64,000 nucleotides of DNA from Pristionchus mayeri (Eukaryota > Nematoda > Chromadorea > Rhabditida > Neodiplogasteridae): the NCBI GenBank assembly GCA_036245805.1, contig BTRK01000002.1:34826661-34890660 (forward strand), given 5' to 3'. Below the pieces are notes generated by a model. It saw nothing but the letters and a program-made list of their open reading frames with translations. It was not told where the DNA came from and searched no databases. Positions 30,158-45,904 of the stretch are shown here, piece by piece. The translations under genes and the position numbers were made by a program. Position 1 is the stretch's first letter; every line of letters starts with the position of its first letter.

Positions 30158-31200
30158 TGCTGTGAAAATATCACAGGGTGGAATTCCACCCCTCTGCAAA
30201 TTTCTTCCACGGGTGGAAGAAAAAAATTCGTGTGTCGAGAATCCTGAAGCGAAAAGTCCTGTTTTTCAATTTTGGTTACTGTAAGTCAAATCGTCTGGCG
30301 ACTAGCCAAGTTTGGATCTGCGTTGCGGGGAATCGTCGAACTTGATCGATTTCTCTCGTTTCTTTTCGTATTTTATCCGCGTATTATTGATCACACTAGT
30401 CCTTACCATCATCCCACCGACTAGGACAAGTGCTGCTCCAGTTTTGATCGGCGGAAACGTAGTTACAACTTGACAACTTTTGAGTTGCGACCGATTCGGG
30501 CAGTTTCTCTCTCTTTTGCCCTATTTTCCGCTTTAAACCGTGCTGTTTTGGTTCAACCACCGTGTTTTATTGCTGGCACTTGCGTATTCTAGCCTGATAT
30601 TGGTTTTGCGCACGCACAACACGCATCTGGTAGCGACCTCACTATTCTCAACCTGCACGCATTTTATCGATCTTTTCACGTTCAATGTACTTTCGTTTAT
30701 TTTTATCATTCAAGCGCGTATTAGCTTTACTGTAGCACCGCAATCCCCTCAGCACGCTCGCATTACCCCTATACCGGGTTGACAGTCGTGATTTTCTGCT
30801 TTGGCTTCGTTAAAGGGATTTACCAGTCAAAAATCAAGTGCACTTCAAATTGCGCAGTTTTCGTCCCTCATTTCAATGCATTAACTCAAAAAAATTAAAT
30901 AAATTTTATTAAGCTTAAAAACAGGCAAAGCCGGAAAATGAAAATAATTAATTCCGGTGTAAGTCGACGTATTGTGATTACGGTATTTGAAAATAATCGA
31001 CGTTACGGCGTGATCGCCGTACCCCATCTCATCGACGCTTTTGGTTTCATTGTATTTTCGGTTAATTTTCGTTGTATTTTCATCAAATGTTTTTGCCTTG
31101 TAATGCTAAACCGTATATTCACGTGTATCATGGTAGTTAACCTGTCTAACTGTACTTAAATGATTAACGATGAATGTTACGTAAATTTCCTTCTAGTTCG

Positions 31201-34200
31201 ATGTCCAATTTTCTATGCGTTGTTTGCCTTCAAACTGCGACTGATGTGCGGAGTGTGCCGAAGAAGGATAACAAAAGGAGGGAATGGTTCATCCGACTGA
31301 ACTTGATCGACGAGGAGCTGGACGACCTGGAGAAGCGAGTGCAGGAAAAGTTCAAGGCGAAGAAGAAAGTATGGATATGCTACCGTCACTTCGATAACAA
31401 AGAAGCTGCGCTTCCGATTGATGTGAGTATCTACTGATCAATTTTGGTTTACCGATTTGTATTATATTGCCTTGTCACATGCATGGAATGTACTGGAATA
31501 GTTGCATTGTACGTCTTTACTGTTTTAGCGGCGAGAAAAAACGGATACACCGAGACTCCAAAGGGAAGACAGACCACAGGTACCGGGCATTCTAAGTTTT
31601 ATACGACGGGCAATCGCATATCTAGTACCTGGAAATTCGCACACAAAACGAGCCCTGGGGAGGCAATTCGGCCAAAGAACATGTCCTGAGGAGGCAAAAT
31701 AAGCACACGATACACAACAACCATTATAGAATGTGAGGGTGGAGGAGGAACAACCGTGCGAAGATTCAGTAGGCAGCGTCGGGGACGATATCTACGACTT
31801 TCAGTTGGATGCACCGTCGTCACAGGGAACAGATTACCTGGTAAGAAAATTACTCAGCCGAATTGGCATACTCCACAATTATAAATGTTGAAAAGTATTT
31901 TATTCATTGCAAACACAGTCATACACATAACGGAAATGAAGATGTTTGAAATGATCCTTAAAGTTACCGGACAAGGACGAAACCCTGATCTCGTCGCGTG
32001 TACGAGAGAGTATGCAAAGTGAGAGAGCGCGGGATTACGCTGATCACTTTCGATTTTCCCTTGAGGCTATTATTGATTTTTAGCATTTTTTGTATGCTCA
32101 TTCTCATCTAATTCAGTCATCGGCTATTCGACGGAGGACAAAAAATAGGGGGTCAATTTTGTCCTCGTCCGGTAACTTTAAATCGACAGCAGTAACAACA
32201 GTCATGATATAAATGAGTGATGTAAAAATGAAAGACATCTAGGTTTTTTATCACAATAGAAAACTAAATTCAGTTCGCCCCATCCCAAGGCACGTGTTCG
32301 CAAGAAACAGACAACGGCGTGCTAACGGATTCCCCGACAACAATTGATGATCACAAATTCTTCCTCGTCTCCAAGGAATCCCTAATGTCGCTCTTCTCCC
32401 GTTGCCGCGACTGCGGCACAGCCCAGATCGAAGCCGGGACCTTCCACTCGTGGACCGTAGGCTCGGCCCTCAACCTGCAATGGGTTTGCCTTGTTTGCGA
32501 TCGGATTGTGAGGTGGAGCTCTCAAGAGAAGATAGAGGGATACTATGAGGGAAACCTCAAATTCACTACATCTGTTCACATTACTGGAACGCCCGTGCCT
32601 GTTAGTTCGATATCTATAGAAGACCAGATCAGCCTAGATTAGAACGAAACATATTGTTCTCGGAAATTTAATTCAGAAAGTCCTAGCGATGGGAAAGCAA
32701 CTCGGACTGGCGCTCCCCTCCTACAGCACAATGAGGAACCATGTTGCTGATGTGATCATCCCAGCTGTGGATGTAGTGTATGAGACGCACAAGAAGCAGG
32801 CAGAGGCGACGGTTAGAGGAGCCAGCGGGGTTAGATATTTCATACTTATTTACATCTTTGACTCACTTGAAAACCTTTCCGTGCATCCGACCTCGACCGC
32901 ATACCCCGGCCTCCCCTGAAATATGTCCATGAGGGGGATACGGTAGTTTCTTATGACCCCTCCCATCCCCTCATAACCTCTGACTGCTCCTGGGCCTGCT
33001 TCAATCCATGCGGGGGACGTAGGCCTCTCATCGCAGCTGAAATAGTGTGATGTGAAAACAGAGAAGATCAAAATATCGAACGTTAAAATCCCGCAACTGT
33101 GTATACAGAAGTCACAATGATGTTTCACAAACTTCCTTCTCAATATTAGTCGAATTATCAAAGCACCAATAAAAGCTACTAGAACAATTTTTGATTTCAT
33201 CGCTCCTAATCTTCTAATGCATAGCCGTGGAATAATATAGATATCGGAAGGAAGTTTGAACATTTCAGAAACACGGGATCGACGTGGCGGTCGACGGGAG
33301 ATATGGTACTCGAGGCTTCACTTCAACCAACAACACCAACACCGTGATCGATCTTGGGACGAACTTAGTTTTAGAGGCAGTGAACATGCACAAGAACATG
33401 CGAGGGATAGGTAGTGTTAGTTGTAATTAGTTAGTATCGAGTTTTCTATTACTAGTGGAAACGTTTCCAGACGGCGTGAGTACCCGGATGGAGAAAGAAG
33501 GCATAAAGAGAGAACTCACGACATTAATTAAGAAGATGTTCACGGTCAGATATCGCAATTCGGGAACAACGAAACACCGATATTTAAATGTCGCTAATGC
33601 TAGTTAATGGTAGATAAGGAGTGTAACTTCGGACAACGACGCCAAGATAGGCAAAATGATGAGAAGCGAGCCCCTCTTCTCCCGAATTCGGCACTGTCTC
33701 GACTTTTGGCACTTGATCAAAGGAATCAACAGTGATCTACGAGAGGTTATTAGTATAGTTAGTACGATTAGCTTCAATTAGGTTCACAGTAATAAAGTAA
33801 ATGGAAACAATCGAAGTCAACATACACAAGTGAATTCAGCTAAGCAAGAAGAAGAAGTGTGCTCTGATAAAGTACTGGTGGAAGCACATTGTCAATCACT
33901 GTTATCACGTGCACTACCAGTACCGAAGGAACAGGTCAAAAGGGCTCGAGCGATGGAAGAGTCTGTTGGCTCATGTATGTGGACGGCATAAGCATCTAGA
34001 GAAAGTTAGTGCAAAAACAAAATAACAATAATATTATTTGTTATATCATGCATGCACGATACTAGAAGTTAATCATACTCAGGTGCCGTTCTTGTCGGGG
34101 ATCAGTGGATGCGTGCACAAGGAACTGCCAGAGGCTCCATCTCACAACATTGATCGGAAGAGCGAGGAGTTCCGCCAGCTCAAGAAGGTCATCCTCAAGC

Positions 34201-35246
34201 CCGCCTTCCTCGCCGGATTTGTTCGAGCTTCCCCGAAGAAGAATACCTCTCCCTGCGAGTCTTTCAACTCGCTGGTCAACTTGTACATCCCGAAAGACAT
34301 CGCATGGTATGCAAAAAATTTGACTATTGACCCCCCCCCTCCCCCTACACTTCATAACAACTTGAATCGCCATCGGCCTGTTTTATTAAGTTGCCCCGCC
34401 TTCTACCACGAGAAGATCAAGCTCGTCGTCCTACATCATAACACGATTGCGATGGCGGATCTGACCGCCTTGAGGGAGGAGAAGTCTTCGTATGTGACAA
34501 GGGTGAAAGGACGACAGACTGTTTGTGTGAAGAGGAAGATGTCAGCGGTGGATCACTACTGGAGGAGAGAAGTTAGTACCATGGACAACAGTTCCCTTCC
34601 CAAAGCATCAAAGTAAAATTAGTGTGTTCAGGTCTGGAAGGAGGTACAAGAAGTGGCACGCCAAAGGAAGCTGCACGCTTACCTCAAGAAGATCGGCGCC
34701 CCGGATTCGATCGCCTACGTCAAAGCCCTCTATGGGAAGGAGAACGATCAGCAGGAGGGGGATATGGTAGAAGATGGAGCAGAGAGTGATGTGTCCGTCG
34801 AATTGGGAGGAGGATACGGAGAAGAAGTCGACTCGGACTCGAACCCCATCATGGACCCGATCGTGTTCAGCGATGATCACGATTCGGAGTCGGATCATGA
34901 GAGGGGAGAGACGAGGGAGGAGGTACTGTCTTCTGGTTCCGAGTGGAACGAAGGAGAGGAGGAGGAGTCGAAGACTCCAGCTGGTCGTGGAAGGGGGCGA
35001 AGTGAGCAAGGGAAGGCGAGAGGAGGCACCAGAGGGAAGGGAAGAGCAGCCAAGGTGGCAGAGGAAGACGAGACATCTGAGGAAGAGGGAGAGGGCGAAG
35101 CAGGAGAGGTGAAGCAGCCAGAGAAGCCGAAGAGAGTGATGAAGACGAAGAGAGGAAGAGGGGAGGAAGCGGATGGAGAAGAGGAAGGTTACGAGGGGGA
35201 TGGGAATGAGCCAGTGAAGAGAGTCAGAGGGAAGAAGTCAGATTAG
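31201..35246 (+). CDS. THAP-domain DDE transposase (Kolobok-like)
   Basis: Exons include 31201-31422, 31529-31579, 31730-31840, 32274-32594, 32677-32829, 33269-33410, 33456-33544, then blocks near 33637-33745, 33840-33972, 34082-34304, 34392-34570 and 34633-35246. The N-terminus has the C2CH pattern of a THAP zinc finger (FLCVVCL .. WICYRHF .. ALPID). The core shows DDE candidates: VAVDGRYGTRGFTSTNN (first Asp), VTSDNDAK and HCLDFWHLIKG (second), and NTSPCESFNSLVNLYIPK (Glu). A second CxxC pair (RCRDCG..CLVCDR) precedes the core. The C-terminal 150 residues are an acidic then basic low-complexity tail (KRVRGKKSD stop). The frame is open in every exon I could check, but the phase at 33544/33637 was not reconciled. 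Confidence 0.68.
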
Positions 35247-35734
35247 TTACGAACATGCAGGGACTGAGAAATTGTTAGGGGCACATGCATATTTCCGACT
35301 GTTTGCATTATTACTCACCTATGTTAACCTCCATTTCATGATGATTAATAAATTACTTTTGAAACTACCCTTGTCTCCCAGCTCCCACTCACCCCTGCCT
35401 CCTTCAGTCGATGGGCGTAGATGGCTCCCTCATCTCGCAGCACGCCGAACTCGCACGTGGCGACAAGATCGCGCGGCAGGTCGGGCAGATCGGGCTGCAT
35501 CATCGGAGCGAAGTCCGGATTCGTCAGGAACGGCGTGACGTACTCCTACAAAACCAGTTTGTAATAGATTGTCGTAGCCAAGGCTACCGTAGAACATGGG
35601 AACCATTGATTCTAGCAGCAAAACCCTGCCGGTTTTGGATAATACTACGCCAGTTTTTTGTGCACCAACCTAATAAATGCAACAACCTAATAAATCGATA
35701 ACTAACCCTTACCATAGTTGTGCACGATACGATG

Positions 35735-36370
35735 GGGGGTGCCCATCCGGACGGGCACCTCCCATCGACGTATTGGGGTCATGGTAAAAAATCGATCGGT
35801 AGGTCAAGACTAAGTACCATAACCAATCGATAGTAAAGTACACCCTGATATTGTATATGGATACCGTAACCCGCGAATATCGCAAACTAACTTTATTTTT
35901 AAAAATGTCCTGTCACCGTGCCCAATCGATTGTACAGTACCCAAGTCACTATCGTAACCCAGTTCCTTGGGTCAGATCCAGTTACTTGGGTGAAACATTT
36001 TCATAAAATTGTCAAACATTTTTTTCTAAAACTCCTAAATCGATTATAAAATGATTCACAGTAACGAGAGATACGGTAGGATAATTAAAAATAATTTTAC
36101 TCTCGTTTTTAAATTTTTAGAAAAAAATGTTTGACCCAAGGAACTGGATCTGACCCATGGAACTGGGTTACGGTAGTGACTTGGGTACTGTACAATCGAT
36201 TGGGCATGATGCCAGGACTTTTTAAAAATAAATTTAGTTTGCGATATTCGCGGGTTACGGTATCATGTGCTGTACAATCGATTGTTTATGGTACTGTTTA
36301 TGGTCTTGACCTACTGATCGATTTTTGACCATGACCCCGTATACATCGAGGGGGGGGGGGGGCAATCCCT
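35735..36370. repeat. Palindromic repeat in place of the esterase nucleophile exon
   Basis: The arms about 35768-35990 and 36120-36345 are reverse complements (ATCGATCGGTAGGTCAAGAC.. against its complement). They contain the motif CAGTTCCTTGGGTCAGATC. A poly-G run flanks the right end. The same TTCCTTGGGTCA motif family occurs at 18205-18290 and 37600-37690. Confidence 0.65.
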
Positions 36371-37029
36371 GCACACCGATGATCCGTACCGTTTCGGGCG
36401 CAAGTCTGTAGTCGATCGAGACGAAGAGGCGTGTGCTCATCATTTTGGCCATCGTGCGCGTCACAGACTCATACCTGAGATAGGGAGATAATCAATAATT
36501 GCCAATGAATCGATAAATGATATTACTAATCGATAATTAATGCAAAACACTCACATCTCCGTATTGCCCAAAACGAATCCACCACCGTGGATGAAGATGA
36601 TGGCGCCGTCAGACTCGGTAGTCGCATTATTGCGAGGGTGATACACACGCACCTGCATTACAGTACCATATCTGCTACAGTACTCCACTACCGTACCTTG
36701 ACGCCGTCCCAGTGGGTCGTCTCCATGAGCAGATTCGGATCCCAGTCGAACATCGGCCCGATCAGTCGACTCAACGCGGTCGGCGTCCAGCGCGTCCAGT
36801 ATATCATGCAGTAGGCGTTCGAACACAGGCGCGACTGCAATCGAGAAGACTGTTTAGTATGGTAGGTCGATGGGCATGAAGAAGAGTTCCCCGTGTTACA
36901 ACCATACCTGCCCACACCGCCGGTAAACCCAGGAGCCTATATACGTCGATTGTTTTAACTACCAAAACGTTGATAGTCAAAAGTGTAACCTAGCGAACTA
37001 AAGTTGACCCACCGTACTGTGGTACGGCA

Positions 37030-37110
37030 AATATGTTTCACACTGGTTGGACTCGAACCCACTACCTTCGGTTTCCAAGCCAAACTTGTTAGCCACTCGG
37101 TCATGATTTA
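37030..37110 (-). repeat. tRNA-Ser-like repeat fragment
   Basis: The minus strand reads GACCGAGTGGCTAACA (A-box like) and GTGGGTTCGAGTCC (B-box like) at tRNA spacing. The 5' and 3' arms do not pair, so it is probably a second SINE type or a tRNA pseudogene. Confidence 0.4.
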
Positions 37111-37149
37111 ATAACGAAAAAAATAAAAATAAAATTTCCTCAGAGTTAT

Positions 37150-37446
37150 TCAATAAAAAGGTAAAGGTAAAGGTAAAGGTAGTTCCGTCTTCAGCGTATT
37201 TTTCAACGCGCGGAACGTGCGCAGGTGTCTTTTGATCGGTGTGTACGCATCCATAGCATATAGCGGCATAGGTTGTCACTCAGTTGCCAGCCGGCGACGC
37301 CGCCCCTTTACTCCTGGTTTTAGTACCAGTACCAATTGGACCAGGCTTGGTCGGCCTGATGGGGTGGTCTTGTTCCGGACGGGATTCGAACCCGGGACCC
37401 TGCGTCGCTCAGCCAGACACACTACCGGCTGAGCTATGCCCCTAGC
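37150..37446 (-). repeat. tRNA-derived SINE
   Basis: On the minus strand it starts GGGGCATAGCTCAGCCGG (A box) and has GGTTCGAATCC (B box) about 45 bases on, the RNA polymerase III promoter layout of a tRNA. A non-tRNA body follows, and it ends in a CTTTAC repeat tail at 37158-37185. It sits in an intron of the captured esterase fragment. Acceptor stems do not pair, so it is not a tRNA gene. Confidence 0.7.
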
Positions 37447-38444
37447 TATGTTATTCAATATTGAGGAACGAACTGAATTTTATGGTATCTTTTAGAAAAA
37501 AAAGTCAGTTCGTGATTGGCCAATGGGCATACGGTAGTGAGGGTTACGGTAGGTTACTGTAGAACATCAATAGTGATTGATGATTTTTTGTAAAAAAGTT
37601 TGACCCAAGGAACTCAAGTTGCTCCACGGAACCCGGGCTACGGTAATCAAGTTACTGTAATTTGGGTTACTGTAGTCCCATAGTGTAAGTTGGTACGGTA
37701 GTTGGACTAGATTACATCATGATCTACCACAACATTATCGACCATGAACGCCGATTTTTTTTGACTACCAGATTGAGCAAAATTACAACGTATAGGGAGT
37801 TGTCGATTTTTTTTTGACTACCAAAACGTCGTCAGTGCTGGACAGGTATGGTCACAACCCAAACTCACCGGATAGTAGTAGGAGATTCGAAGCACGGGCT
37901 CGATGATGTGCATCGCCACCTTGTCGATCGTAGACTTGGCCATCTGAAGTGATGCCTATGTAATCACCCCTTTGTGAACATCGTGCAGATCTCCAACTAC
38001 AAGCACTTTGCAATGATCCTCATCTACATCTACCGTACTTTCTCGGGAGGGGTCGGTAGGGAGCTGCCGCCATCAGCAGCACCAGCACGCCCACGATCGT
38101 GCCTCCGGCGACCAGATGAGATCCCTTCTTCTGCTTATCGCCAGCCATCTGAATCGACATTACAGTAAGGTGAGAGGGTGAGAGGGCGATTCGGAAAGTA
38201 ATTCAGAGACGCGCGCCGATGGAAGGGAAGCATTATGAGTACGTGCTCCCGCGAAAGGCGGGAGAGGGACGAACGGGGAAATAGTGGGGACGGGGGAGGG
38301 GTAGATCAATGCCCTCTCCTCCTCCCTTCACCTCTTCCCTCGTCAACTATCGATTGACTCAGGTCCCCTATGTGGCTGGCTAATCAAACACCGAAGTATT
38401 CCGGGTACCCGATGTTATATGTAAATGTTAGATGGGGAACGTAC

Positions 38445-38576
38445 CGGGTCTCGACCTTGACGAAGAAGTTGTCCTTCATGTAGTCGGGGTTCGTCAGCAC
38501 CGTCCGGCAGTACGGGTAGGCGTTCCAGGCCTCCTCGTGGATCGCCAGCGAGCCCTTGGGCGCGATATTGCGGGGC
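38445..38576 (-). pseudogene. Captured phosphatidylinositol transfer protein exon
   Basis: A single 132-base exon with intact acceptor (..TTTTAG) and donor (GTACGTTC) encodes [38 protein letters not shown]. This is the conserved [10 protein letters not shown] region of class I PITPs, which carry PI and PC between membranes. I find no other PITP exon in the window, so it is an isolated fragment inside the Kolobok-like element, on the same strand as the esterase exons. The frame is fully preserved. Confidence 0.75.
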
Positions 38577-39106
38577 CTAAAACAATTAAAACTTATTAAT
38601 TTACCGATTAAATTTTAATAATCAATAATAATCAATAATCTAGACAGGCGGCGGATAGGGAGCATGGCTCCCTACCCGCCGCCTGTCTAGGCCTTGCTCG
38701 CGTCGGCCGCCAGAATGCGGTTCAATAACATAAAAAAACGCATCACAGGTTCATTTGAGTGCATAAACAGAAAGCGGAACTAATCTACTTCATGTTTTAC
38801 GACCATTAAACGCAATAAATGAATGAAAACAACAGAAAACGTCGAAGAAACCGCAGAAGATACGACGCCGCCGCCGTGATTGACTCTTGCCGCTAGGTCG
38901 CAAACAACTAGATTTCTACCGTAATTTTATACCCATCGGCTGCAGAAGAATGTTTTTAAATTCGCCATTTTTAAAGTCAATTTTAACAAAAATAGTATTT
39001 TTATTATTTTTTTGTGTTTAATAAGTTGTTTTGAGTCGATTATCACAGTCGATATTCAAAATTACAGAACGTTTTAAAAATTAAACTTTGGGACTACAAG
39101 ATTCCT

Positions 39107-39840
39107 TTAAGCTCGTGTTTTGCCATTCCGTTTACAACGATTTTACTCACTTTCTTCCTTTCGCATGCTTTTTTATTTACAAATTTGATTGCTTGCAGGT
39201 AAAATTCCATGACGGCGCGCCGTCACGAACGCTTTTGTGGCGACGATTGAGGAACAAGAGCCGCGAATCAAGAATCGCTACTTCGCCGATTGATCAGGTA
39301 CCGTCTATTTATACATTTTGAGCATTAATTCTTCATTATCGACCAACGTACTAGTAGAATGTCCTTCGCTATCCTTTTCCTACCTGCATTACACCTGATT
39401 CATGAAAGATATTGTCGTTTTTAGCTCACCAATCGACGATCGTCCTGTTCACTCTCTTCGAGCGTCTTGCTGGCTCGTTCGCTTCGGTGGTTGACCAGGT
39501 ACCTGTTTATATATATACTTTGAGCACCTACTGCCAAATATTGATCAATATATCTGTACAACATCCCCGACATCATCTTTTTAATTCTAAACACCCCTGA
39601 TTCATCATGTTTATTGTCGTTTTGAGGTCACCAACGAGTGATCGAGTGTTGAGCGAGAGTGAAGAAGCGTGGGCCTTCCTTCTGGCAAGTCTCTCTCCTG
39701 CTGCCGACTACGGTAACTCTCCAGGTCGTTTTGAGGTCACCATTCGGTGATCTATTGCGCTGTTCGAATGGTCCAACTTCATACGCGTCTCTATCTCGCT
39801 TCTCTTCAACAGAGGTAGGTCGGGCATCTATTTATGTTTA
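39107..39840. repeat. Inner left arm of the Harbinger element
   Basis: The stretch is matched in reverse complement by 44588-45245. It contains imperfect tandem blocks of about 170-200 bases, each with a GGTACC or CAGGTACCTG-type motif, a TATTTATA motif and TTGAGCA. The apparent protein reading (SVYNDFTHFLPFACFF..) appears on both arms and is therefore an arm sequence, not a gene. Confidence 0.65.
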
Positions 39841-39966: not shown

Positions 39967-41000
39967 ATGCGACGCTTGCTCGGCGTTCTCGGAGCAATAC
40001 TGCTGCTAAGAAGAAAACAAATTCTAATAGAAGCATCAAGACACATTGAACAATTGGAGCTGATCAGAAGCTGAGCTGTCTTAAGGAGAAGGCGTTGGCA
40101 AGCACTGGATCAGTTTTTGGTCGATATTAGAAATGATCCCTTAGCTTTTAAAGCGACGTTTCATATGACTATACCGCAATTCGATGTGCTCCTTTCTAAG
40201 ATATGTCCGTTACGTGGAACCAAACATTATTGTACTACCTTACCTGATTCACATATGTTATATTTGTTCCTTATTTATGCTACAGTCTTATTTAGTTTCA
40301 GACTTAGACAACTGGTATTTCCATTCGAGCAATTAGCAGATTATTCTTTGTGAATCCCACATCGTTTACGAAATGCATTCACCTTATTTCAAAATCAATT
40401 ATTCATAATATTAATAATGTTAATCTTCCTTCCACCCGAGACGAATGGCTTTTCATTCGTCAACGGTTCATTCGCCTTTATGATGCCCCGTCTTTTGGTA
40501 GTCTCGACGGAAAGCACATTAAAATTCGTTGCCCCCCTAGATCAGGCAGTTCTTTCTTTAATTACAAGTGCTTTTTTAGTTATGTTCTTATTGGTCTGTG
40601 TGACTCAGACTTGAGAATTCACTTTGTTGATATATGAGGTAGAGGCCGGTCGCATGATTCTTCTTTGTTCGAGAGAACGGAGTTAGCTAGAAAATTAGCA
40701 ATGCCCAATTTCTTGCCACCTCCCATTGTTCCCCCAAATCAAAGTGTATTTCAAGACATTTCTATTCACTCTTTCGTAACTGCAGATTGTGCCTTCAAAT
40801 CGTCCATTCATGTTGTAAAACCTATTGCATCTGCCTCATCGTCTAGGGATCGTATTTATAATTACCGTGTATCTAGGTCTCGTAGATGTATCGAGAATGT
40901 CTTCGGGGTTATGACCTCAAGATTTCGCATTTTATCAAGACGCATTTTATCATATTGGCCTGGCCAATTCAAAAAATCTCATTCTCGCCCTTTGTAACTT
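39967..41000 (+). pseudogene. PIF/Harbinger transposase relic
   Basis: From the ATG at 39967 the frame reads into Harbinger nuclease motifs: GSLDGKHIKIRCPP (first Asp), FVTADCAF (second Asp) and CIENVFGVMTSRFRIL (Glu). It is interrupted by TGA near 40072, by TGA at about 40351-40353 with a change of frame, and by TGA after HFVDI near 40637. The DDE residues are still visible but no intact product is possible. Confidence 0.75.
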
Positions 41001-41230
41001 ACATAACTTTCTCATAACGGTTCCTTCGGAACCATTAGTTCCCGTTCGTTACCTACCATGTACTATGACTGCGTCAGATCAGACACAATTTTTGATCGAT
41101 TATTTCAATGATGTATATAAAGTTGCGGGGCAGGTATCCTAGAAAAAAAACAAACAAACAACACACATCTGAAATACGCATTTTGGTATTGGTGCTAAGA
41201 CACAGAGATGTTACAGTATATTATTCATTA

Positions 41231-42731
41231 CATGAACGAGTTCTTTAGGAAAGAAAATGGATTGGGTTCTTCGGATTGTACATTTTCATTGGGAGGTGGT
41301 ACAGTAGGGAACGAAAGCGGTGAATTGAAAGGGGGGAATTGAGGGGGTACATTATAAGGTGGATAATGAGGAGGGGCAGAATATGGATGAAAGGGAGGAG
41401 GTGCGGGCGAGATATAACGATCCTCTAACGAATTTAAGAAATTGTGAATCTCTCCTACAGCACGATATCGTCTATCAGATGGTACTTTGTCTAATAATTT
41501 ATTTATTCTATGGTGAATGTCAAGATAATTAACAGACATTTTCTTATTCTCGCCACTTGTACTACTTTCATTCTCAGTGATCTTGGAGAACACAACCTGC
41601 AGCATGTCGTCCGTCTTTTTCAACTCTTCGAGGAATCGATCACTTCCCATCGCTTTTTTTATCTTCTTCTTCACAGTGACAGCTGAATCCACCTCTTCGA
41701 TTCCAGCTTCATCGACTGCAAATGCATATGTGATAGATATTCCAGTAACCTTAAATGTAACTAATTCGGGAAAATATCTGACAAAACAATATATCAACAT
41801 CCCAAATTTCATAAATTTTATAAAACGGTAAAACATACTCTTAGTCGCATCACTCCTCTCTCGTTTCACTTGAAGAGAAGGTCCAGGTTCTTCCATCAGG
41901 CCGATTGATGAACTAAAACATTTTGATGTTTTCAAATTGAATTACTTTAGTATAAAACTTAACCTTATCATATCTTATTCACATACAGCTCAAAAATCAA
42001 AGCTACTCACATCGTACTCTCCTGCGCGAGTTTGTCGAGGAACGCATATTCCTGCTCGAATTTGATTTTCTTCAGCGGAACCGCTCCACTCCCAGATTTC
42101 GTTTTCTGAACTTGCTTCAACGCGTGCTTCCTATCCATTTTCAGTTTCTTGAACGTGGATTCACACGTGCTTCCTAAAAAAAGCAATATATTTTACTGTG
42201 ATAGTAGAAAGCGTAGCAAGTTGGTGTGCCTCGGTGCACAAAGGAATCAGCAGAAGGAACGGAACGTTAAATGTACGGTAGCTGCCTGTCGTGCTGTGCC
42301 TGCACGCACAACACAAGGCACATCATGACAGGCAGCTACCGTACATTTAACGTTCCGTTCCTTCTGCTGATTCCTTTGTGCACCGAGGCACACCAACTTG
42401 CTACGCTTTCTATTCTCACAGTACCTTATTTTTATTCAAAAAAACAAGCATATTAAAAAATACCTTTCACACCGAACATAGCATCGAAATCGGACCAGCA
42501 TTTCTTACGACCTTCAGTAGATGCCTTTTTGTAGACCGGATTTGAAAAATCCCATAAACTCTTCTCCGACTGCACTAGAATGAGCAGCCGACGCTGTTCT
42601 TCAACTGATAGGGCAGTCTGGAAAAAATATGTGTTTTTTTAAGCATATAAGTAACCCTCCACCTTTAGATTCTCAGTGATGGTAATCTCATCATCTAAGT
42701 CATCAGTGGCATGAGAAGTTTTTCTCGACAT
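41231..42731 (-). CDS. MADF-domain DNA-binding partner of the Harbinger transposase
   Basis: Exons on the minus strand: 42663-42731 (MSRKTSHATDDLDDE), about 42463-42618 (MADF domain: RRLLILVQSEKSLWDFSNPVYKKA..CWSDFDAMFG, shown in part), about 42009-42176, about 41841-41912, and 41231-41718 ending NSFM then TAA. The last exon has a BESS-like helix (HHRINKLLDKVP..RAVGEIHNFLNS) and a proline-rich tail (PPPFHPYSAPPHYPPYNVPP). In PIF/Harbinger elements a Myb/MADF protein helps the transposase reach the nucleus and the ends. It stays open although its transposase is broken. An inverted repeat (42193-42425) lies in one intron. Confidence 0.72.
42193..42425. repeat. Palindromic MITE-like insertion in the MADF gene intron
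   Basis: The arms about 42200-42300 and 42320-42422 mirror each other (AAAGCGTAGCAAGTTGGTGT.. and its complement), with a short spacer near 42305. It has no coding content. Confidence 0.75.
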
Positions 42732-42739
42732 TCTTAATC

Positions 42740-44587
42740 AATCAATCAATCAATTTATCTTATCAGGCGGAAACGCTCAGAAGATGATAGGTCGGTAGTC
42801 TTCATAAGTTGCACTCCACCAATGGCTGCCAATAGCTCGGGATAGGTCGTCTCTCCATCGCGCGCGAGGCTTTCCGGGGGGACGAGTCCTATTGAATGGA
42901 GTCCAGACAGTTGTCGCACGGCTCCACTGTTCCACTCCCATTCTTCTGATCTTGAGGGCCCAGCGCGCTTTTCGTTTCAATCCTTCCTCATTCCAGTCTC
43001 TCAGCTTGGTAATCCCTCTCACGCGGTCATTCCTCCATCTGTCCCTTAGCGTGACTCCAAGCATCTTTCTTTCCATCTTCCTCTGGGTGACTCTCAGCCT
43101 CTCCTTCTCGCTAGATCTCAGAGCCCATACTTCACACCCATAGAGAACTGTAGCCGTGATGCAGCTCTCGAAGACTCTCCTCCTGATCTTGATGGACAGA
43201 ATTCGAGAAGATAGGAGGTGCGAGAGCTTACTCCAGGCCAGCCACCCTAATCGAATCCGGTGTTCTATTTCGTCGGAATGATCCAAGGGAAGAGCTATTC
43301 TTCCTCCGAGATAGAGGTGGTGAGGAGGTTGGTCTTGCTTGCATTCACTTCGAGACCAACTCGGCTGCACGCGTCCATCAGCTTCTTCAGCATTCGTTCC
43401 AGCTCGGGTCGAGATTTGGCAACGAGAGCCACGTCATCGGCATACTCCAAGTGGCAAAGGTTCCTTCCGTCGATTCTAATTCCATCTGACTCCCAGTCAA
43501 TGTTGTCCATGGCTGATCGTAGCACTGCGTTGAAGAGACGAGGGGAGAGGGTATCCCCTTGGCGGACTCCTCGACGCACAGTCACAGGAACGAGCTCCTC
43601 ATTAACTCGAATGAGTGTAGAGGAGGACTCGTAGAGACGGCGCAACATGTGGACGAGGGAGGGATGGGCTCCGAACGAGAAGAGGGCTTGCCAGCAGGCA
43701 TTCCACTCCACACAGTCGAACGCCTTCTTGAAGTCGACGAACGCCAAGTAGATTGGGATACCGTACTCGGAGGTTCTTTCAGCGAGCTGCTTGATGGCAT
43801 GCAGGTTGTCGAGAGTACTGTAGCCGCGCCGGAAGCCGGTTTGGGTCGAGGACTCTGTTTCTTCAAGCACAGTTTCGAGTCTCTGAAGAATGACGTTGGT
43901 CATTGTCTTCAGGGAAACGGTGAGGAGGGAGATGGGACGGAAGTTCCCAATGTTGGTAGGGTCTCCTTTCTTGTGCAGAAGAGTGACAATTGCTTCGGTC
44001 AGGTCGCTTGGAACAGCCTCTCCATCTACCAGATAGTTGAGTAGATCAGCGATAACGGGAGCAAGGTGGTTTCGAGAGTGGTATAGCATATCAGGGAGAA
44101 TGCCATCCGAACCGGGTGAGTGACCACACTTGAGTTGGGACATCGCTTTGCTGACCTCATCGGGTAGGAAGGGAGGAAGGGGATCCAGAGGCTGAGGAGG
44201 GACTGGGAGTGGACACGGAACTGCAGGGGTGTAGAGACCGTCAAAGAAGCTCTGGACCACTGTCTTGGTAGCTGCTTGAGAGAGAGCACCAGTTACAGGG
44301 TCGGGAACTAGAAGGCGCTTCTTTGAGGTTTGCAGACTCAGCATGCTCTTCACGATGCTCCTTCCCATGGTTGCTGCTTGCCGTGCTTGCGCCTCCTTTC
44401 GCTTCCTGATGTCATCGACGAAACTCGTCCGGGCAGCTTTGCAGGCAGCTGAGTAGGCGACAGCTTGTTGGGAGTTGGATTGCAATTCATGGCGCATCGC
44501 TAGGAGCTTCCGCGTTCCACTCGAGATCCAAGAAGGGGATTGGCGCTTCCTGAGAAGGACATTCTTAAGGATCACATTATTATGCTA
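42740..44587 (-). mobile_element. RTE-like non-LTR retrotransposon, 5' truncated
   Basis: The minus strand encodes reverse transcriptase: HSPGSDGILPDML, FRPISLLTVSLK, FVDFKKAFDCVEW, RRGVRQGDTLSPRLF and the catalytic LEYADDVAL. A C-terminal region includes YGCEVWALRSSEKERL and RPPGKPRARWRDDL, as in RTE-type elements. The frame shifts once near 43300-43370. The 3' end is an ATTG tandem tail (about 42744-42760), typical of RTE. The 5' end stops inside the polymerase ORF at about 44587, where Harbinger arm sequence begins. No endonuclease is seen, so it is a dead, 5'-truncated copy. Confidence 0.78.
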
Positions 44588-45904
44588 GAATTAAAAAGAT
44601 GATGTCGGGGATGTTGTACAGATATATTGATCAATATTTGGCAGTAGGTGCTCAAAGTATATAAATAAACAGGCACCTGGAGAGCTACCGTAGTCGGCAG
44701 CAGGTGAGAGACTTGCCAGAAGGAAGGCACACGCTCCTTCACTCTCGCTCAACACTCGATCACTCGTTGGTGACCTCAAAACGATAATAAACATGATGAA
44801 TCAGGGGTGTTTAGAATTAAAAAGATGATGTCGGGGATGTTGTACAGATATTTTGATCAATATTTGGCAGTAGAAGCGAACAAGCCAGCAAGACGCTCGA
44901 AGAGAGTGAGCAGGACGATCGTCGATTGGTGAGCTAAAAACGACAATATTTTTCATGAATCAGGTGTAATGCAGGTAGGAAAGGGATAGCGAAGGACATT
45001 CTACTAGTACGTTGATCGATAATGAAGAATTAATGCTCAATGTATAAATAGACGGTACCTGATCAATCGGCGAAGTAGCGATTCTTGATTCGCGGCTCTT
45101 GTCCCTCAATCGTCGCCACAAAAGCGTTCGTGACGGCGCGCCGTCATGGCATTTTACCTGCAAGCAATCAAATTTGTAAATAAAAAAGCACGCGAAAGGA
45201 AGAAAGTGAGTAAAATCGTTGTAAACGGAATGGCAAAACCCGAGCTTAACGAAGCCAAAGCAGAAAATCACGACTATCAACCCGGTATAGGGGTAATGCG
45301 AGCGTGCTGAGGGGATTGCGGTGCTACAGTAAAGCTAATACGCGCTTGAATGATAAAAATAAACGAAAGTACATTGAACGTGAAAAGATCGATAAAATGC
45401 GTGAAGGTTGAGAATAGTGAGGTCGCTACCAGATGCGTGTTGTGCGTGCGCAAAACCAATATCAGGCTAGAATACGCAAGTGCCAGCAATAAAACACGGT
45501 GGTTGAACCAGAGCAGCATGGTTTAAAGCGGAAAATAGGGCAAAAGAGAGAGAAACTGCCCGAATCGGTCGCAACTCAAAAGTTGTCAAGTTGTAACTAC
45601 GTTTCCGCCGATCAAAACTGGAGCAGCACTTGTCCTAGTCAGTGGGATGATGATAAGGACTAGTGTGATCAATAATACGCGGACAAAATACAAAAAGAAA
45701 CGAGAGAAATCGACCAAGTTCGACGATTCCCCGCAACCCAGATCCCAATTTGGCTAGTTGCCAGACGATTTGACTTACAGTAACAAAAATTGAAAAACAG
45801 GACTTTTCGCTTCAGGATTTTCGACACACGAATTTTTTTCTTCCACCCGTGGAAGAAATTTGCACCCCTTTCCACTTTCCACCCCTGATATTTTCACAGC
45901 ATTA

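Follow-up and report, generated by a model that had tools for sequence, protein, structure and literature searches.

The window, the 64,000-nt stretch of Pristionchus mayeri DNA that we analysed (on contig C2), contains one copy of a DNA transposon that carries, antisense to its transposase, parts of two unlinked host genes, a PITP gene and the esterase gene trcs-1. We hold with good confidence that a young Kolobok-like family captured the two genes, and that the cargo then decayed and was exchanged between transposon families.

The element and its surroundings comprise the following features:

30810–39110: whole transposon, 8301 bp, TTAA to TTAA, delimited by recurrent left and right ends and by an empty site
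30810–30828, plus strand: left TTAA and imperfect terminal inverted repeat (AGGGATTTACCAGTC)
39092–39110, minus strand: right terminal inverted repeat (AGGAATCTTGTAGTC on the minus strand) and TTAA
31201–35246, plus strand: transposase gene of several exons (limits by eye), with a THAP-like first exon, a PF20700 core and an acidic C-terminal tail
44952–45409, minus strand: empty site, in a further copy of the target repeat that has a single TTAA

The flanks of the element are part of another repeat, whose second copy at 44952–45409 matches both flanks, joined at a single TTAA, with 97.8% identity over 460 positions. The two terminal inverted repeats agree at 10/15 positions in a by-eye count. 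We searched the genome (290.8 Mb, 73 contigs) by scoring the best candidates for each query, and the copy counts are lower bounds. The left end has 36 other near-full matches, 26 of which start exactly at 30810 and the other 10 at 30806–30822; two diverged left ends (84% and 81%) likewise start at 30810. Among 20 fetched loci, 19 (all but L014) share the TTAA at which the right end terminates, and the flanks of the fetched loci differ, save in one tandem pair. The whole segment 35393–38576 recurs at 98–100% identity in at least 17 places, the window included, and copies occur on all six large contigs. Mean pairwise divergence among family copies is 0.3–1.3%, depending on the region, indicating that the family is young. 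The preliminary description had allowed that the TTAA ends might be coincidental and had called for a search for other copies; the recurrent exact ends and the empty site inside the window establish the ends as real, and the exons recur in copy after copy. Chance is excluded for both the ends and the recurring exons.

Locus L019 (C4:145460-155440) contains the right half of the element twice in tandem with the same flank, and L026 (C3:34370150-34380130) is a rearranged copy with its right end inverted relative to the remaining element. Other features lie to the right of the element in the window: open pieces at 40075–41142 that by eye resemble a Harbinger-type transposase (SLDGKHIKIRCPP), an inverted repeat at 42185–42432 with 117-nt arms, 93% complementary and 14 nt apart, and a minus-strand open frame at 42777–43433, similar by eye to the C-terminal region of a non-LTR reverse transcriptase.

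The joined transposase pieces match Pfam PF20700, "Mutator-like transposase", with an E value of 6.9e-9, and the THAP match in the first exon falls below its cut-off. All 29 of the 29 protein matches at E up to 0.001 are Pristionchus proteins. A DFWH motif near 33705–33716, a candidate for the C/DxxH of Kolobok transposases, was picked out by eye in the translation. Mutator (MuDR) elements have target duplications of about 8–10 bp. For a MULE-like element, 9–10 bp is given (PMC8277862). Membership in Mutator was rejected despite the PF20700 match, the target duplication being TTAA and not a long one. piggyBac elements are defined by the piggyBac transposase domain. No such domain was found in the joined transposase pieces at E up to 0.1, and the ends are RR/YY, unlike piggyBac ends as described in PMC9587614; piggyBac membership was rejected as well. 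The same paper characterises the Kolobok superfamily by a 4-bp TTAA target site duplication, ends with 5'-RR and YY-3', and a DDD/E transposase with C/DxxH between the second D and the E (PMC9587614). Our element is bounded by TTAA on each side, the empty site has TTAA once, and the ends inside the TTAA read 5'-AGG and CCT-3'. The TTAA target and RR/YY ends fit Kolobok, and on these features we call the element Kolobok-like.

The cargo lies behind the plus-strand transposase, on the minus strand:

35380–35392: junction between the transposase 3' flank and truncated trcs-1, homologous in the window, L031 and L032
35393–35545, minus strand: trcs-1 exon EA, then GTGAGT; a later exon with the catalytic His is absent
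35758–36356: imperfect hairpin repeat of about 600 bp inside a cargo intron, present elsewhere in the genome at 86–90%
36390–36476, minus strand: trcs-1 exon E5
36553–36655, minus strand: trcs-1 exon E4 (HGGG)
36703–36836, minus strand: trcs-1 exon E3
37868–37943, minus strand: trcs-1 exon E2
38032–38160, minus strand: trcs-1 exon E1, for the membrane anchor, lacking 1 nt that the host has
38447–38576, minus strand: piece of PITP exon 3; 38447–38566 is identical to the host over 120 nt

The PITP exon matches Pfam IP_trans (E 3.2e-17) and the esterase exon at 35393–35545 matches Abhydrolase_3 (E 1.2e-7). Two other esterase exons score weakly on their own, and all of the esterase exons align to trcs-1. 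The best protein match of the esterase is P. pacificus trcs-1, with 88% identity over 47% of the X-padded query. Pfam and the trcs-1 alignment thus bear out the earlier reading of AADAC-like exons and one PITP exon at 35393–38576, and similarity identifies the AADAC-like esterase as trcs-1. One of the other genomic copies of the hairpin repeat is at C2:28015912-28016542 (90%). A 0.9 kb insertion in the cargo contains a stretch, 37143–37450, that by eye looks tRNA-derived (SINE-like); near 37380–37445, where it looks tRNA-like by eye, ARAGORN calls no tRNA.

Both parental genes, whose existence the preliminary description had left to be checked, are present and complete on two other contigs: trcs-1 on C1 at about 1896500–1898960, and the PITP gene on C3, where its exons span 45602334–45604968. 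Element and host trcs-1 align through introns as well (36382–36909, 92%; 37851–38182, 84%; 35385–35591, 89%), and PITP introns are kept in L036 and other loci. Because the cargo keeps host introns, genomic DNA was captured, and capture from spliced RNA is ruled out for both genes. Host gene fragments between transposon ends, parents elsewhere and retained introns, the features of capture of the Pack-TIR type, are all seen here. With exons travelling in dozens of exactly bounded copies and parents on other contigs, transduplication by a TTAA-target Kolobok-like element, as first proposed, is upheld.

Two further observations concern the neighbourhood of trcs-1 and its relatives. Capture of a promoter was considered for 38199–38369, which matches DNA lying 1.1 kb upstream of the host gene trcs-1 at 79%, but was rejected since the segment lies between two PITP copies in L034; the match may be a dispersed repeat. 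Four loci (C4:11534926-11544055, C4:12093621-12096138, C4:42415557-42421324 and C6:40424403-40427179) hold trcs-1-related esterase genes that match the Ser and His parts and are apparently host paralogs.

The cargo in the window is the decayed remnant of a larger capture comprising nearly all of PITP and a 3'-truncated trcs-1. In L035, L036 and L038, nearly all PITP exons with their introns are followed by trcs-1 exons in the same orientation, at a distance of 0.3 kb in L036. L037 has PITP exons and no trcs-1 within its 4 kb. L034 carries two diverged copies of the PITP exon, and loss of E4–E5 is common to L030, L035, L036 and L038. A 3.55 kb query of L036 cargo gave at least 115 matching stretches when the best 40 of 318 candidates were scored; the PITP exon gave 94, the host exon included, with all 135 of 135 candidates scored. 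The segments L031 and L032 match the far end of L029, which looks like another repeat.

We then related cargo to transposase divergence, using 109 listed transposase matches of 224 and counting EA or PITP exon 3 downstream on the opposite strand as cargo. At transposase identities of 90% or more, cargo accompanies 37/37 listed places (EA in 34, PITP in 32). EA is present in 7/8 listed places at 82–86% (the 85% class) and in 15/20 at 78–81% (the 80% class); with PITP exon 5 added, cargo is found in 8/8 and 18/20 of these, and both genes in 6/8 and 13/20, respectively. At 64–66%, cargo occurs in 26/35 listed places, with PITP in 25 and EA in 1, and at 63% or less in two of the nine listed, both with PITP. 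The simplest order of events is no cargo, then PITP, then trcs-1.

The window and the 80% family, represented by the single locus L032, differ unevenly along their length. Over three transposase exons, dS is 1.37, 2.03 and 0.61 and dN 0.13–0.15, and in 100-base windows over the introns identity falls to 0.42–0.57. From 34791 through the transposase tail identity is 0.86–0.96, and in the cargo 0.88–0.95. For cargo exon EA, dS is 0.085 and dN 0.073, and the adjoining intron differs at 10/108 positions. The best change point is:

34766–34790: transition, in the comparison of window and L032, from a diverged transposase core to the portion in common with the 80% family

Within the transposase exons, identity is 0.76 before and 0.92 after the change point at 34766, and 0/500 shuffles gave one as strong. 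In a control within the family, window against L034, identity is 0.97–1.00 over 35175–35624. In the well-aligned parts of the L032 transposase stretch, the 85% family matches the 80% family at 89–92%, and window-family copies match at 75–81%. The change point and the higher identity of tail and cargo argue that, in one of the families, these parts have a more recent origin than the divergence of the transposase cores. From these alignments we infer that the cargo module was probably exchanged between families, which suggests that jumping elements can hand captured host genes to one another. The stretch 35241–35390 between tail and cargo, where identity dips to 0.71–0.74, is unexplained by one recent exchange and counts against this best explanation.

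Several distances fit a simple exchange poorly. Over the whole pieces around E3, host trcs-1 differs from the window at 16/216 positions and from four other loci at 18/211 to 26/215, and the window differs from those four loci at 26/210 to 34/214; that is, they are farther from it than the host is. Separate captures or gene conversion with the host could possibly account for this. EA differs from the host at 10/153 positions, while the window PITP exon is identical over 120 nt. Between L036 and L037, the PITP exons differ at 55/456 positions and the introns and upstream DNA at 176/737 (not counting the short fourth intron), a hint of past constraint or of repeated capture. The misfits are compatible with host genes having been contacted repeatedly, with captures made separately or with a phase of constraint. 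They could all be read to mean that no exchange occurred, and that each family captured PITP and trcs-1 itself or that host and element copies keep converting one another: the distances around E3 are star-like with the host in the middle, the PITP stretch equals the host where EA does not, and PITP exons are less diverged between families than introns. However, the junction of transposase flank and trcs-1 and the non-host intron beside EA are common to the window, L031 and L032, and L035, L036, L037 and L038 have similar sequences of PITP intron 3 that the host does not share. The same joints in several families argue against independent captures, and we consider a history with no exchange unlikely. 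No capture intermediate was seen in this genome.

Whether or not it was exchanged, the cargo shows decay. Exon E1 is one base short relative to host trcs-1 and has the same length in 20/20 further copies, and no copy varies at the deleted base; copy lengths and the list of variants thus point to a shared deletion, around which the window copy has private bases. The PITP exon has lost 11 nt behind its acceptor and is cut on its 3' side. Since the host exon runs on past the cut, the GT at that point does not correspond to the host donor. At E2–E5 and EA, most acceptor and donor sites survive in nearly all of the 20 copies compared. The description of "intact splice sites and frames" therefore holds for most E2–E5 and EA sites and fails at the E1 deletion and the cut PITP exon. 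The exons with the catalytic Ser are absent from the window copy and present in a variant subfamily, for example in L034. The last part of trcs-1, with the catalytic His, was found at none of the cargo places when 116/116 candidates were scored; it matched host trcs-1 and less similar places, taken for paralogs. EA contains a stop codon in four copies. Among up to 21 copies, the ratio of nonsynonymous to synonymous changes per site is 0.54 for the cargo and 0.53 for the transposase, a test of low power because most variants among the copies are singletons; coding constraint on the cargo was rejected with this reservation. The cargo is most likely now a pseudogene and a passive passenger.

Selection might instead keep the cargo if identity to germline-expressed genes blocked germline small-RNA silencing of the element or made silencing costly to the host. 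Several families retain cargo, the longest perfect matches to the host loci are 120 nt for PITP and 78 nt for trcs-1, and the transposase part shares no 21-mer with either host locus. trcs-1 is essential, with oocyte and embryo defects in C. elegans (PMC8664450), and Turmoil-1 likewise took pieces of two host genes (PMC2572040). In contrast, the changes look neutral, with EA dN close to dS between families and the ratio among copies equal to that of the transposase, and many of the listed transposase relatives have no cargo. We judge selection on the cargo to be improbable, and it is similarly doubtful that a PITP–trcs-1 module passing between distantly related families is kept because its identity to germline-expressed genes makes the elements count as "self" in small-RNA surveillance or holds those genes hostage.

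The remaining alternative, raised at the outset, of a rearranged host segment in which exons came to lie beside a transposase by accident and form no mobile unit, could draw on the shared strand of the two genes' exons and on some kept splice sites, but is practically untenable in view of the exact ends, the empty site, dozens of copies with unrelated flanks on six large contigs, and complete, unlinked parents. A host gene pair was rejected too: with the 48-residue PITP exon as the only query, a search of 10.4 kb around host trcs-1, reaching 6.2 kb upstream and 1.7 kb downstream of the gene, did not find that exon, which also speaks against the rearranged segment.

We favor a history of capture, decay and exchange. 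The window holds one copy of a young cut-and-paste, TTAA-target (Kolobok-like) family of Pristionchus mayeri. Its ancestors took up copies of genomic DNA from two unlinked genes: PITP almost in full, and trcs-1 minus its final exons. Template switching, while an excision gap or a broken fork was being repaired, could account for the capture. The pieces ended up in tandem, antisense to the transposase, and subsequently lost exons; later, cargo and transposase tail may have passed between families by template switching or gene conversion. Apparent stages coexist in one genome, from no cargo detected through PITP only and PITP plus trcs-1 to decayed cargo. They offer a natural series for testing the route of capture and the effect of captured germline sequence on silencing. 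They also call for caution in annotation: many PITP and trcs-1 exons in the P. mayeri genome are transposon cargo.

Plant Pack-MULEs typically lack a transposase and have longer target duplications, whereas the present element has a transposase and a TTAA target. Like it, they are multi-copy transposons with captured gene fragments, as noted in PMC8277862. The same paper reports 370 Pack-TIRs in 100 animal genomes, in which host sequence is copied between terminal inverted repeats, with gap filling or fork switching as the explanation; these are mostly single-copy, with a median duplicated size of 224 bp, whereas our element is multi-copy and has its own transposase. The words "Kolobok" and "nematode" are absent from that text (PMC8277862), as are "Kolobok" and "transduplicat" from the main text of a P. 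pacificus repeat survey (PMC9297572). Within the open-access literature that we searched, neither this element nor a nematode Kolobok element that captured genes was reported.

The expectation that such a capture would be notable for a Kolobok-type element in a nematode needs qualification for nematodes, where Turmoil-1, a C. elegans Harbinger element, is a precedent (PMC2572040). Turmoil-1 resembles our element in that a DNA transposon of a nematode has a transposase together with fragments of two host genes (rsp-2 and cpg-3), with introns kept and splice sites damaged (PMC2572040). Its pieces of 205 bp and 131 bp lie in long inverted repeats, and it is present as one full-length copy and 8 fragments (PMC2572040). 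In contrast, in the present element the DNA from the two genes amounts to about 3 kb and sits between the transposase and the right end, and the element has many near-full copies, a TTAA target and a cargo shared by several families. Among Kolobok elements, KolobokE, KolobokH and KolobokP share the TTAA target, the RR/YY ends and an extra gene beside that for the transposase, which in one instance lies on the opposite strand as here; their extra genes are nucleases or helicases taken as element genes, whereas ours are decayed host lipid genes (PMC9587614). Gene capture by animal cut-and-paste elements has been reported mostly as single-copy events (PMC8277862). What is unusual about the present system is that the carrier occurs in many copies, has a transposase gene of its own and bears a cargo common to diverged families.
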